From positions 1-21,567 of the IMG/VR virus record IMGVR_UViG_3300011113_000226: DNA of 21,567 nt. One strand, 5' to 3'. The translations under genes were made by a program, and so were the position numbers. Below, in pieces: positions 8,863 through 20,840 of the stretch (positions are counted from its first letter, which is position 1; each line of letters begins with the position of its first letter). A model generated the notes under the pieces. That model was not told where the DNA came from and ran no database searches. It was given only the letters and a program-made list of their open reading frames with translations. This DNA comes from a virus.

Positions 8863-9509
8863 TGTCTTACTTTAGAGAACTACCAAATCTAGAATATCAA
8901 TCTTTTCTATCGGACAGAAAGTCTGTTGATGAATACATTTTAGTAAAGAATTTATTCCGTAGAGTAAAACTTCGTGATGACTTACAGAACATCTTCACCA
9001 TTTTTGACAAGTACCAAATTGTTGATGGTGCTCGCCCAGATACAGTTGCAGAAGAACTTTATGGAAGTGCTCAATATGACTGGGTTGTTTTAATTGGTGC
9101 AGGAATTACAAGAGTAAGAGACCAATGGCCTCTTTCTGATAAGCAGGTTTATGATTATGCAGAGTCCATTTATGGTGAAGACTTAAATGCAATTCACCAT
9201 TATGAGACCACAGAAGTTAAGGACTCACAGGACCGTTTAATTCTCCCAGCAGGTAAAGTCGTTGATGCTAATTTTACAATTCCAAAACCAGGCGATCCAA
9301 CAACGACATTGAATCCAGTAGTTGGAGTATCAAACTATGAATATGAGGTTCTTAAAAATAATGATAAGCGTGGTATCTACGTTCTTAAACCAAGGTACTT
9401 ACAACAAGTTCTTCTTGATACAAGAAGAGAGATGTATTATGATAAGTCCTCACAATATGTCAATGATAGACTAATCAAGACTGAAAATACCAGAGCATCA
9501 AACCCATAA
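8862..9509 (+). CDS. 53: Baseplate wedge protein gp53
   Basis: A 215-residue protein of the T4 gp53 baseplate wedge family. It opens MSYFRELPNLEYQSFLSD, followed by KNLFRRVKLRDDLQNIFTIF and DGARPDTVAEELYGSAQYDW, then a hydrophobic VVLIGAG turn; this AEELYG-DWV pattern is a familiar mark of gp53 homologues, whose core resembles LysM. In T4 gp53 joins the wedges to one another. It is coupled to gp48 by a one-base overlap and ends the plus-strand cluster. Its last 12 bases overlap the end of the convergent Mom-like gene, and no intrinsic terminator separates the two converging transcription units. Confidence 0.87.
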   Translation: MSYFRELPNLEYQSFLSDRKSVDEYILVKNLFRRVKLRDDLQNIFTIFDKYQIVDGARPDTVAEELYGSAQYDWVVLIGAGITRVRDQWPLSDKQVYDYAESIYGEDLNAIHHYETTEVKDSQDRLILPAGKVVDANFTIPKPGDPTTTLNPVVGVSNYEYEVLKNNDKRGIYVLKPRYLQQVLLDTRREMYYDKSSQYVNDRLIKTENTRASNP

Positions 9510-10088
9510 GAGTTTTAAGTTTTTATCAAACATCATCACATATCGGTGTTTGCGGGAACGGTCTTTCCATTCTCCTGCAGCACCTTTAATTTTGCCTCTA
9601 GAGTGTTTAGTTCCGTCTGCATAGTAAAAATCTTTCTTTGGGTCTGAAAGTCCGCAATATTTAAAATTACAAGCGCGATAGATTGTACCAAAGTGGAAAT
9701 CACTATCAGCGTAAGAGATGATTGCCCTAACTTTTGTATCCTTCCGTAACTGTCTAATCGCTCTTGAAACAAACCAAGAAGTGATATTATATTCGGTTCC
9801 TTGGGTTTCAGGGTGAATGCAAAGTCGTGAAAGTTCAAATAATCCTTCTTGCTCATTCCGTTCTAGTCCAAATGCTCCTTGTGCGATTTCAGGAACAGGG
9901 AGACCTGTAAAAATTGCTGTTCCTAAAAGAGGTCCTATGTTTAGTGGGGAAAAGTCATTTTTCTTAAAAAGACCATAATTATAACCAGAGCGGTAACCTT
10001 TAGAAAAATCTTTTAGATAATGATAATTCAGTAGAAGGTCTGCTGCCTGCTTCTTTGTGATTCGGTCAATGTAATAGTCGGTTTTCAT
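9498..10088 (-). CDS. Mom-like DNA adenine modification protein (GNAT-type fold)
   Basis: A 196-residue protein resembling phage Mu Mom, which adds a methylcarbamoyl group to adenines and so hides phage DNA from restriction enzymes. Diagnostic segments are LFELSRLCIHPETQG (residues about 83-97) and ISYADSDFHFGTIYRACNFK (124-143) followed by YCG, matching the core of Mom and related GNAT-like proteins. The N-terminal half (YHYLKDFSKGYR, GTAIFTG) also fits. No Com-like zinc-finger regulator is present nearby. The ATG at 10088 immediately follows a terminator-like hairpin and U-run, and a perfect sigma70-type promoter lies just upstream, so expression looks unusually controlled. The 3' end overlaps gp53 by 12 bases, convergently. 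An unrelated GNAT acetyltransferase role is the main alternative. Confidence 0.75.
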   Translation of the reverse strand: MKTDYYIDRITKKQAADLLLNYHYLKDFSKGYRSGYNYGLFKKNDFSPLNIGPLLGTAIFTGLPVPEIAQGAFGLERNEQEGLFELSRLCIHPETQGTEYNITSWFVSRAIRQLRKDTKVRAIISYADSDFHFGTIYRACNFKYCGLSDPKKDFYYADGTKHSRGKIKGAAGEWKDRSRKHRYVMMFDKNLKLLWV

Positions 10089-10117: not shown

Positions 10118-10146
10118 ATTATAGCACAGAATCAGTCCTTTGTCAA
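10118..10146 (-). promoter_or_regulatory. Perfect sigma70-type promoter for the Mom-like gene
   Basis: The minus strand carries TTGACA (10141-10146), exactly 17 bases, then TATAAT (10118-10123): both hexamers match consensus fully. The -35 box lies in the last codons of the GIY-YIG gene. The expected start is near 10111-10115, at the base of the GGGGAG/CTCCCC hairpin. Confidence 0.8.
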
Positions 10147-10952: not shown

Positions 10953-11876
10953 TTATTCCGCTAATTTTGCGAAGTATGACAAGGTTTCGTCGGCATCGTC
11001 TTCATCTTCCTCAACCGCAGCACGGCGAGTGGGTTTCAGATTGGACAGTTCCTCACGCAGGTCATCATCCAGTTCCTTGACAGAACCACGGGTGTTGTCC
11101 TCATCCAGATCTTCGGGGTCCTGATAGCGGGGAGTACCCTTATTACCTAGCACATAGTCAAGACGCTTCTTCAGTTCATCATAAGACTTGAACTGGTCAG
11201 CAGCGATGTGATCAGCAAGCGAATACTGCTTCTTCCACACTGCTTCCATAGCGTCATCATCGTCCAGCAGAGGACCAGGTGCAGCAAACTCAGAAGAATC
11301 ATAGTTGCGATAACCAGCAACATTCTTCGCTTTCAGTTTGAAGTTGGCACCTTGCCAGAAGTCAAACGGATCAATCGCTTGCTCATCTTCAAACTCGGGT
11401 TGCATTGCAGCAGTCAGTTTGTCAAAGATTTTCTTACCATACTTGAAGAGAAACACTTTACCCTCATTTTGAGGATTGGCAGGATCTTTAACAACATAGA
11501 TGTTAGAGATGTAAGTCAGTTTGCGCTTCTGCTTACGCGCAAGTTCTTTACCAGCATCAGTGCCGTTGTTCCACAGTTCAGAGTTCAGTTCGGACACAGG
11601 GTCCTTCTGACCCAGGGTGGTGAGACTGTTCTCAATGTACCAACCACCAGAACCTTGGAATGCGTGACTATACAGCTTCACGAATGGCAGGTCTTCACCA
11701 TTGGGGGCAGGCAGGAAACGGATTACGGCATAACCATTGCCGCTCTTATCTACATCCAGTTTCCACAGGCGGTCATCACTAGAACCGCTGGTTGTATTCA
11801 TTTTTTCAACTTCTTTGACCAGTTTGGCAGTCAAAGAACCAAGTTTAGATTGCTTCTTAAGGTCAGCAAAAGACAT
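10953..11876 (-). CDS. 32: Single-stranded DNA-binding protein gp32
   Basis: A 307-residue homologue of T4 gp32 (301 residues), which coats single-stranded DNA in replication, recombination and repair. The order is as in T4: N-terminal cooperative segment; core with DRLWKLDVDKSGNGYAVIRF and LPAPNGEDLPFVK; the conserved YISNIYVVKDPANPQNEGKV and FKYGKKIFDKL; and a long acidic C-terminal tail from about residue 255 that in T4 recruits partner proteins. The zinc-ribbon cysteines of T4 gp32 are absent, and the protein contains no cysteine at all. Upstream are a near-consensus promoter (11920-11948) and a tandem repeat that includes the GAGG ribosome-binding site. GC content is higher than in the surrounding endonuclease genes, as often in highly expressed core genes. 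Confidence 0.95.
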   Translation of the reverse strand: MSFADLKKQSKLGSLTAKLVKEVEKMNTTSGSSDDRLWKLDVDKSGNGYAVIRFLPAPNGEDLPFVKLYSHAFQGSGGWYIENSLTTLGQKDPVSELNSELWNNGTDAGKELARKQKRKLTYISNIYVVKDPANPQNEGKVFLFKYGKKIFDKLTAAMQPEFEDEQAIDPFDFWQGANFKLKAKNVAGYRNYDSSEFAAPGPLLDDDDAMEAVWKKQYSLADHIAADQFKSYDELKKRLDYVLGNKGTPRYQDPEDLDEDNTRGSVKELDDDLREELSNLKPTRRAAVEEDEDDADETLSYFAKLAE

Positions 11877-19197: not shown

Positions 19198-19432
19198 TTC
19201 TTTTACCTCGGGAAACTACTTTTCTCTTCCTTGACTTCAAGGAAAATTCAAAATAGACAGTTACTTCCCGATTTAGAAAGCAAACTATCTTCTCAAAAAT
19301 GATGTGAAACGGTTGAGTTTGCTTTCTTTTACCTCCATAGAGTAGAAGTTCAACACCACGATTTCTGTGGTTAGAATTATTTATGTCAGGACTTGATGAT
19401 TTGTTGCTCTTTGAGGAATTTGATTGTGTCAA
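19184..19432 (-). CDS. Possible small basic protein between glutaredoxin and the membrane protein
   Basis: An open frame filling a 188-base gap, ending 14 bases into the next gene. From about residue 24 the sequence looks protein-like: RGVELLLYGGKRKQTQPFHI, then IFEKIVCFLNREVTVYFEF. The first 20 residues (Ser/Asn/Lys-rich) overlap the glutaredoxin gene. The only in-frame start is TTG 19432, with AGGAGG five bases upstream, though those bases also encode the conserved glutaredoxin Gly-Gly. A CATAAATA box (19378-19385) lies within the frame, and an unannotated start further down is possible. A rival short frame (MEVKESKLNRFTSFLRR, 17 residues) also exists. Real coding status is uncertain. Confidence 0.4.
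   Translation of the reverse strand: MTQSNSSKSNKSSSPDINNSNHRNRGVELLLYGGKRKQTQPFHIIFEKIVCFLNREVTVYFEFSLKSRKRKVVSRGKRNARS
19378..19385 (-). promoter_or_regulatory. Possible late box after the glutaredoxin gene
   Basis: The minus strand reads CATAAATA directly after the glutaredoxin stop. It could serve the membrane-protein gene at 19197, 180 bases downstream, or a small gene between. Confidence 0.35.
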
Positions 19433-19628
19433 CTGATCCTCCTAGTTTCCTATCATCACAAATAACTTGTGGAAATGTAGAACCTTCACCAAATTCAGCA
19501 TAAAACTCTTCTCTGGTAAAATGTTCATTAAGATTATAAACCACAAAGTTACTTCCTGTCAACTCTAATACTTGTTTGACCTTGTAGCAATACTCACACC
19601 CATCTTTACTGTATACGGTAAAGTTCAT
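19386..19628 (-). CDS. Glutaredoxin (NrdC-like)
   Basis: An 80-residue glutaredoxin. The active site CEYC lies at residues 11-14 after MNFTVYSKDG. The cis-proline is in TFPQV (residues about 52-56) and the glutathione-binding GGSVD at about 64-68, all in normal positions. In T4-like phages such proteins (NrdC) give electrons to ribonucleotide reductase for deoxynucleotide synthesis. The start is ATG 19628: the upstream in-frame ATG at 19643 is immediately followed by GGGGGAG, which is the ribosome-binding site of the shorter form. A perfect TTGACA-N18-TATAAT pair occurs inside the gene (19533-19562). Confidence 0.9.
   Translation of the reverse strand: MNFTVYSKDGCEYCYKVKQVLELTGSNFVVYNLNEHFTREEFYAEFGEGSTFPQVICDDRKLGGSVDTIKFLKEQQIIKS
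19533..19562 (-). promoter_or_regulatory. Possible internal sigma70-type promoter in the glutaredoxin gene
   Basis: The minus strand has TTGACA (19557-19562), 18 bases, then TATAAT (19533-19538), both exact, within glutaredoxin codons. It would transcribe the possible small gene and the membrane-protein gene. Being inside coding sequence lowers confidence. Confidence 0.45.
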
Positions 19629-19644
19629 TTTTTTCTCCCCCATT

Positions 19645-20283
19645 TTAATGATAATTAATTGTTTCTAAACCATTTTTATAATCTTCTATTATACCATTAG
19701 AAATGCGAATAAGAGCATTTTTAAGTCTATAATCAGATTGTTTATCAGCAATTTCTTTTATATATCTAGACTTTTCTAACTGATATTTTTTGTGTGCCTC
19801 AAAAGGATCATCATATATTCCTAAATAAAAAACTTTCCCTTCTTTACTAAGATAAGAATGAAATCCTTTACTACTTTTACAATAGTACACACCCAAAGGA
19901 TACTTACCTCGCTTTTTGTCACATTTTGTCAATAATAAATTTATATAACTTGGAACAAAGACACATTTATCTGGTGCATACACTTTATTTCCAGGATATA
20001 AAATGTCTTTATCTAAATGTTTATCCTCCCAATCTTGCTTTTCCATCCATAGTTTAAAATTAGAAAAATATTTCCACTCATCGCAGACAGAACAACCAAT
20101 ATAAGCAGGATGTCTTTTTAATGAATTTTTAGAATAGCATCTTGTTATTAATGCCTCCCATTTCTTGTAATAGGGACAACTTTTTCTTTTTCCATTTATA
20201 AGTGGTTTTATAACATAATCAGCATCATTTACACCAAATCCACAAATTAATCTTCTTTGCGATTTACTTGCCACTATACTCAT
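19645..20283 (-). CDS. HNH-like homing endonuclease with AP2 DNA-binding domain
   Basis: A 212-residue protein of a type widespread in phages. Residues about 36-118 hold the nuclease-like part: CPYYKKWEALITRCYSKNSL, GCSVCDEWKYFSNFKLWM, then HLDKDILYPGNKVYAPDKCV and FVPSYINLLL, resembling HNH-fold proteins where the second half carries an Asn helix. Residues about 126-175 (LGVYYCKSSKGFHSYLSKEG, VFYLGIYDDPFEAHKKYQLE) form an AP2-type DNA-binding domain. It lies just upstream of glutaredoxin (16-base gap) and just downstream of the candidate small RNA terminator. AT-rich composition fits recent insertion. A TATAAATG sequence lies only 4 bases before the ATG, too near to be a useful promoter. Confidence 0.78.
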   Translation of the reverse strand: MSIVASKSQRRLICGFGVNDADYVIKPLINGKRKSCPYYKKWEALITRCYSKNSLKRHPAYIGCSVCDEWKYFSNFKLWMEKQDWEDKHLDKDILYPGNKVYAPDKCVFVPSYINLLLTKCDKKRGKYPLGVYYCKSSKGFHSYLSKEGKVFYLGIYDDPFEAHKKYQLEKSRYIKEIADKQSDYRLKNALIRISNGIIEDYKNGLETINYH

Positions 20284-20307
20284 AACATTTATAGTAATTT
20301 ATAATAG

Positions 20308-20334
20308 AAAAAAGGAGGGTATAAAACCCCCCTC
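20308..20334 (-). terminator. Intrinsic terminator of the candidate small RNA
   Basis: On the minus strand GAGGG pairs with CCCTC around a 9-11-base loop, followed by C and six T residues. It lies upstream of the AP2 endonuclease and ends any transcript from the promoter at 20415-20443 or from the 131-residue gene. Confidence 0.8.
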
Positions 20335-20408
20335 AGTAACCACCAACTCACCTCTTCACACCACCGAAGAGGGTCTTTCATTCTCAAAGATACAAAGATT
20401 TGAAAGAC
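20308..20408 (-). ncRNA. Candidate small RNA, about 100 nt
   Basis: The stretch has no open frame of note. A perfect promoter (20415-20443) predicts a start at about 20408, which is also the first base of a hairpin whose 8-base stem is GTCTTTCA/TGAAAGAC (20401-20408 with 20373-20380). A second hairpin follows without a gap: CCTCTTC/GAAGAGG (20366-20372 with 20351-20357), with the loop GGTGGTGT. Next comes a short unpaired linker that also contains GGTGGT, then the terminator. Promoter, start, structure and end thus agree on one RNA. Its targets are unknown; the repeated GGUGGU could pair with an ACCACC-type target. No RNA family is recognised. Confidence 0.6.
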
Positions 20409-20414
20409 TTGATT

Positions 20415-20443
20415 ATTATAAAGGATTTTGAGTCAGGTGTCAA
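20415..20443 (-). promoter_or_regulatory. Perfect sigma70-type promoter for the candidate small RNA
   Basis: The minus strand has TTGACA (20438-20443), exactly 17 bases, then TATAAT (20415-20420). It begins one base after the stop codon of the 131-residue gene. The next gene is 125 bases away behind a terminator. Confidence 0.8.
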
Positions 20444-20444
20444 G

Positions 20445-20840
20445 TCAGAGTGCGTGAAGTGCTGTGGTCGCTTCAGCAAGTTTTGCGGTTGCAGCAGATT
20501 CCTTTGCTCCTGCAGTGGCATCATCACCATCTTGTCTTGCCTGCTGTGCTTCACCAGAGAGAACTGATGCCTCAAAATAAGGAGTGGCAACTGATTGATA
20601 CTCTGCTTCGGTCAAAACCTGAACGGAGTTCTTTCCACAAGGACTCGCAACTGTTGATACTGCAGTTGAATCTGGGAGTTCTGCAAGGCAAACATCAACT
20701 CCCTCTGCATCGCTCAACCAAACTTTTACATCAAGTCCTGCATACTCTTTCCAGGGATGTCTCTTATACTGTGGTTCTGTTGTTTCGCAACAAAAAACAT
20801 CGTTGCTATCATCAACATAGTAGTGTTTGATATATTGCAT
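20445..20840 (-). CDS. Unknown 131-residue protein
   Basis: The N-terminal half (MQYIKHYYVDDSNDVFCCET; KEYAGLDVKVWLSDAEGVDV) looks like a compact alpha/beta domain, and the last 50 residues (ASVLSGEAQQARQDGDDATA to TALHAL) are alanine-rich and helical, probably a coil. The three cysteines before the middle and one CGK motif show no metal-site pattern. The ATG at 20840 has no clear ribosome-binding site but a late-type CATAAATA box lies 23 bases upstream. Proteins of this pattern occur in cyanophages as hypothetical; I know no function. Confidence 0.7.
   Translation of the reverse strand: MQYIKHYYVDDSNDVFCCETTEPQYKRHPWKEYAGLDVKVWLSDAEGVDVCLAELPDSTAVSTVASPCGKNSVQVLTEAEYQSVATPYFEASVLSGEAQQARQDGDDATAGAKESAATAKLAEATTALHAL

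Follow-up and report, generated by a model that had tools for sequence, protein, structure and literature searches.

A probable family of small-RNA genes with two exposed GGUGG motifs in T4-like cyanophages

A short intergenic element in a viral DNA stretch of 21,567 nt (IMG/VR record IMGVR_UViG_3300011113_000226, positions 1 to 21,567, here called the window) very likely represents a real and apparently uncatalogued family of phage small RNAs. In the reading that we prefer, with a probability of about 0.6, T4-like cyanophages carry it as a stand-alone gene for a small RNA that pairs in trans through GGUGG seeds. That the element is an RNA gene is the firmer part of this reading; pairing in trans is probable, though less so. 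All the pieces listed in a preliminary description of the window could be found, and they lie on the minus strand, which that description had left unnamed:

20438–20443 (-): -35 hexamer TTGACA, predicted promoter of the RNA gene; 12/12 matches together with the -10 hexamer
20415–20420 (-): -10 hexamer TATAAT, separated from the -35 hexamer by a 17-nt spacer
20308–20408 (-): predicted small RNA of about 101 nt, conserved in S-SRM01 and IMG/VR
20373–20408 (-): P1 hairpin, outer 8-bp helix (20408–20401/20380–20373) plus an inner UCU/AGA helix
20351–20372 (-): P2 hairpin abutting P1, 7-bp stem and 8-nt loop
20360–20365 (-): GGTGGT in the P2 loop, candidate seed 1; GUGGU invariant in a 60-sequence alignment
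20339–20344 (-): GGTGGT in the linker, candidate seed 2, near-invariant
20308–20334 (-): intrinsic terminator, stem 20334–20312 (about 9 bp) and T6 run 20313–20308, with compensating changes in relatives

The promoter is free of mismatches, as claimed, and the predicted start at 20408 is the first base of P1, 7 nt past the -10 box. P1 had been described as one 8-bp hairpin; its outer helix stands, but the second, inner helix had been missed. The adjoining 7-bp hairpin and the T6 terminator are as described, and the fold leaves both GGTGGT copies free or almost free of pairing. Sites of the form TTGAC-N18-TATAAT occur twice in the window, against 0.03 expected by chance under dinucleotide shuffling. 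A second perfect TTGACA-N17-TATAAT lies at 10118–10146 (-), upstream of a Mom-family DNA-modification-like gene (9498–10088, PF25680). Folding the 104-nt strand gives -36.4 kcal/mol vs -25.3 +/- 3.5 kcal/mol for dinucleotide shuffles (z = -3.17, 0/200 as good), and the fold of the opposite (+) strand (131 nt at 20380–20510) is unremarkable (z = -1.1). The described element is far beyond chance. The earlier statement that no gene fits here holds as well: no reading frame within the RNA is conserved, nor is the frame kept between stem classes, and a small ORF starting at an ATG in the 3' arm of P1 was rejected, as its frame shifts between relatives and its start codon is missing in 5 of 67. The stable RNAs C and D of phage T4 lie in a tRNA cluster; no tRNA was found within the window.

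The element is also present, at 81% identity (megablast and blastn), in the cultured phage S-SRM01, a member of the Kyanoviridae with the host Synechococcus sp. KCZYC6, where it occupies an unannotated intergenic gap with gp012 on one side and gp013, the glutaredoxin gene, on the other. The predicted S-SRM01 RNA of 100–106 nt lies at about 10975–11078 on the plus strand of NC_070963, and its 5' end is expected one base ahead of UCUU in P1. More than half of the 80 IMG/VR loci closest by glutaredoxin protein carry it directly upstream. Pattern scans (for P2, the P1 loop, promoter plus P1, and P2 plus linker) yielded further copies, so that the IMG/VR collection comprises 244 loci in 126 distinct element contexts, a count to which one contig can contribute several loci and for which one scan selected perfect promoters. 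The copies mostly lie just upstream of a glutaredoxin gene, and two contigs hold two copies each. Two degenerate members (L067, L070) have no promoter, as would be expected if the element can be lost. Another group of copies (L113, L114, L120, L122, L135, L158, L171 and L190–L192), likewise without a recognisable promoter, is situated between an upstream sulfotransferase-like and a downstream collagen-like tail gene and may be a 3'-UTR-derived version. At L097 (12585–12690, minus strand) and L194, a second copy retains the promoter, P1 and half of P2 before running into a glycine-rich frame at GGTGGTGG; either recombination or an assembly chimera could account for it.

Two models found no match in eight other cyanophage records (S-SKS1, AG-345-L05, S-T4, DSL-LC03, P-SSM2, S-PM2, Syn9 and the freshwater phage S-CRM01), and blastn with divergent members as queries found none in other phage records. 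A host origin was considered and rejected: a pattern scan of 84,980 prokaryote species returned only four stretches, all of them non-cyanobacterial and none convincing under the covariance model (best E 0.0065).

At loci found without selection for a perfect promoter, 64 of 65 distinct cores match the promoter at 11–12 of 12 positions. The spacer of 17 nt and the offset of P1, 6 nt after the -10 box, are the same in all 64 relatives scoring at least 10/12, and TTGACA is exact in 58 of these 64. Pairwise identity is 0.78 over the transcript vs 0.61 at third codon positions of the glutaredoxin gene; over the 40 nt upstream of the -35 hexamer it is 0.30, which is in effect unalignable. Within the RNA, the stems vary, and the P2 loop GUGGU, the linker UGGUGG and the P1 loop stay largely constant. 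The P1 loop (UUGUAUCUUUG in the window, UUGUAWCUUUG in the family) is highly conserved.

The preliminary description would have been contradicted by hairpins without compensating changes in relatives, and such changes are present. Pairs 3, 4 and 5 of P2 swap between C-G and U-A and are still paired in 65, 67 and 67 of 67 sequences, vs about 50–56 of 67 in the shuffled control; this count is ungapped, anchored on the P2 loop and independent of any structure-fitted alignment. We also built a covariance-model alignment of 47 members, including the strongly diverged L261, L264, L267, L270 and L282. Its figures lean upwards because the members are related and were aligned by fitting to the structure: 98.1% of cells are paired vs 89.3% in shuffles, 16 of 22 pairs have changes on both sides, 117 cells are changed on both sides vs 33 in shuffles, and the covariation score is 0.398 vs 0.217 (at most 0.18 in slid controls). 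They agree with the independent P2 count. A consensus fold from MAFFT alone understated P2, since stem lengths differ, and the anchored counts and the structure-guided alignment were used instead. The predicted fold is supported by this covariation. With a conserved family, compensating changes, a promoter at fixed spacing, a terminator of its own and no Rfam match, the proposal of a new small RNA is well borne out.

Both GGUGG motifs are exposed: the mean probability of being unpaired is 0.99 for the copy in the P2 loop and 0.79 for that in the linker, which points to pairing. By inspection, the linker motif of the L261 group can sit in the loop of a third hairpin, GUGU-UGGUGGUA-ACAC. The near-invariance and accessibility of the motifs speak for the earlier idea that GGTGGT is a pairing motif, but no target is established. 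We searched the gene starts of S-SRM01 and two contigs of 211–213 kb for pairing with the linker, the P2 loop and the P1 loop. Among 118 orthologous gene starts, that of a DUF7717 gene is the sole one with CCACC in all three. It is also the best joint candidate, with -15.5 to -19.4 kcal/mol, although 4 of 100 shuffled linkers are as good, and the energies over 68 homologues give a similar picture against shuffles. The pairing falls mostly on ACC threonine codons. The search proposed earlier thus yielded one weak candidate, and a phage target is unproven because these energies are not convincingly beyond shuffles. In L335 and its homologues, on many contigs, the DUF7717 gene is preceded by a strongly conserved leader, TATAAT...CATACGCAAC, which is possibly an early promoter with a fixed 5' end.

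The same exposed motifs could instead serve a decoy, with hairpins and GGUGG titrating a host RNA-binding protein, a part of the ribosome or a small RNA. Such a function would suit an exposed motif that occurs twice, the lack of an outstanding mRNA target in the phage and the conservation of the P1 loop, which GGUGG pairing leaves unexplained. However, pairing of the loop and linker with the Yfr1 motif, the Yfr2 5' motif and the anti-Shine-Dalgarno tail stays within the shuffled range, and no protein partner is known. The preliminary suggestion of a decoy is therefore unsupported for Yfr1/Yfr2 and the anti-Shine-Dalgarno; decoys of other kinds are rather unlikely, but they are the rival that we take most seriously.

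Whether the RNA is free or a leader of the next gene can be judged from its downstream neighbourhood, which in the window consists of:

20295–20303 (-): TATAAATTA box behind the terminator, conserved in relatives
19645–20283 (-): HNH endonuclease-like gene, separating the RNA gene from glutaredoxin (phrog_953, E 1e-87)
19386–19643 (-): glutaredoxin gene, the usual downstream neighbour (PF00462)

If the element were a cis-acting leader of the glutaredoxin gene, P1 and P2 would sense a signal and the terminator would be conditional. Attenuators do have this anatomy of a structured RNA ahead of a terminator, and in 154 of 176 collected elements glutaredoxin starts less than 60 nt downstream. However, the same downstream gene at every copy, as expected of a glutaredoxin leader or riboswitch, was not found. 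The distance exceeds 600 nt in three of the 176 (the window, L009 and L011); in the window the HNH gene, which most relatives do not have at this place, separates the two. At L287, glutaredoxin is about 250 nt away with other sequence between, and for 19 of the 176 elements no glutaredoxin gene is within reach, in some cases owing to the end of the contig. Copies of the L110/L127/L164, L113-like and L141 types adjoin sulfotransferase-like, collagen-like tail and glycosyltransferase-like genes (names that come from reading translations), and in the L110, L113 and L141 types a sigma-70-like TTGAC...TATAAT site for the next gene follows right behind the RNA terminator.

The conserved box behind the terminator also speaks against a leader; TATAAATT is found downstream in 61 of 65 relatives, and most members in glutaredoxin context have it behind the terminator. 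The TATAAATTA box resembles, but is not identical to, the motif ATAAATA. In three of these phage genomes ATAAATA shows a 16–20 fold enrichment ahead of genes, so that the box may be a variant late-type phage promoter of the next gene, although no enrichment is seen for ATAAATT. Finally, P1 and P2 have family-wide mean formation probabilities of 0.93 and 0.96, which counts against a leader too. We regard a leader as improbable. Since the copies away from glutaredoxin have a downstream promoter of their own and an HNH gene has been inserted in the window, we read the RNA and its neighbour as separately transcribed and the RNA as free. The same two observations favour the trans-acting RNA of the preliminary description over a cis leader, short of proof.

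Much less probable still is a strong promoter and terminator acting as an insulator or spacer around an RNA without function of its own: these two parts are the most recognisable of the element, but the letters of loop and linker are clearly better conserved than the flank and third codon positions, and the stems of P1 and P2 covary. A type III toxin-antitoxin-like unit, of which this would be the RNA half, has the same order of promoter, RNA, terminator and gene, yet this reading is the least likely of all: the element shows no tandem RNA repeats, and it is followed by glutaredoxin, HNH or another non-toxin gene.

Rfam 15 contains no family that matches the RNA above the gathering threshold, and a permissive threshold gave chance-level matches only. 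In a limited search of the open literature we found no earlier description of the family. CfrI, an antisense RNA of cyanophage S-PM2 (PMC12197685), is likewise a small RNA of a T4-like cyanophage, but it is a cis antisense RNA of about 225 nt at psbA, whereas the window RNA is intergenic, about 100 nt long and opposite no gene. Identity with CfrI was rejected, as the window RNA is not antisense to psbA and our model has no match in S-PM2. The cis-regulatory Rfam RNAs of cyanophages (wcaG, manA and the glnA/glutamine riboswitch; PMC9964418) are also structured and intergenic; the window RNA differs from them in the lack of an Rfam match, in its own promoter and terminator and in its varied downstream genes. 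On one cyanophage contig (L040, 4847–4895, plus strand) we observed a glutamine riboswitch (RF01739) above the gathering score.

In form, the RNA resembles the cyanobacterial small RNAs Yfr1/Yfr10 and Yfr2 (PMC6778093, PMC2518516), which are likewise short and intergenic and expose an invariant motif, either on stem-loops or between them. In Prochlorococcus MED4, Yfr1 adjoins the thioredoxin gene trxA (PMC2518516), much as the window RNA family lies beside glutaredoxin. However, the motif is GGUGG here and ACUCCUCACAC or its complement in Yfr1/Yfr2. A sponge for, or relative of, these RNAs was rejected, as neither ACUCCUCACAC nor its complement is exposed and pairing is not above shuffles. With the trans-acting sRNAs of other phages (PMC12197685) the RNA shares the proposed mode, that is a host-type promoter, an intrinsic terminator and base pairing in trans; several of those have targets, and a sequence relation to the window RNA is not known. 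At the sequence level, the window RNA has two marks of a bacterial-type trans-acting sRNA: it lies between genes with a promoter and a terminator of its own, and its conserved structure leaves a conserved seed accessible.

From the anatomy of the gene, which is observed, we infer the following course. Host RNA polymerase with the primary sigma factor would read the gene from the consensus promoter; early transcription, as proposed before, has the sigma-70 consensus as its sole basis. Transcription from the first base of P1 to the RNA's own terminator would yield a transcript about 100 nt long whose 5' end is structured and which displays two candidate seeds, GUGGU (P2 loop) and UGGUGG (linker). 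These would most likely pair with CCACC stretches near mRNA starts and so alter translation or decay of the mRNA in trans. Host targets seem likelier than phage targets. It is possible, though somewhat less likely than not, that such RNAs form a widespread host-takeover class in which a single RNA, through its two GGUGG seeds, rewires many mRNAs of the host at an early stage, and that the gene is a movable cassette which has spread to several genome positions.

To our knowledge, few small RNAs of lytic phages have been described, and for fewer still is the comparative-genomic evidence as strong as here. The RNA family is common to many cyanophage lineages and predicts a start site, a length and seeds at the level of sequence. 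Together with the cultured pair of S-SRM01 and Synechococcus sp. KCZYC6, these predictions make phage RNA control of cyanobacterial genes directly testable. If our reading is true, this RNA may give cyanophages a new means of controlling gene expression during infection.
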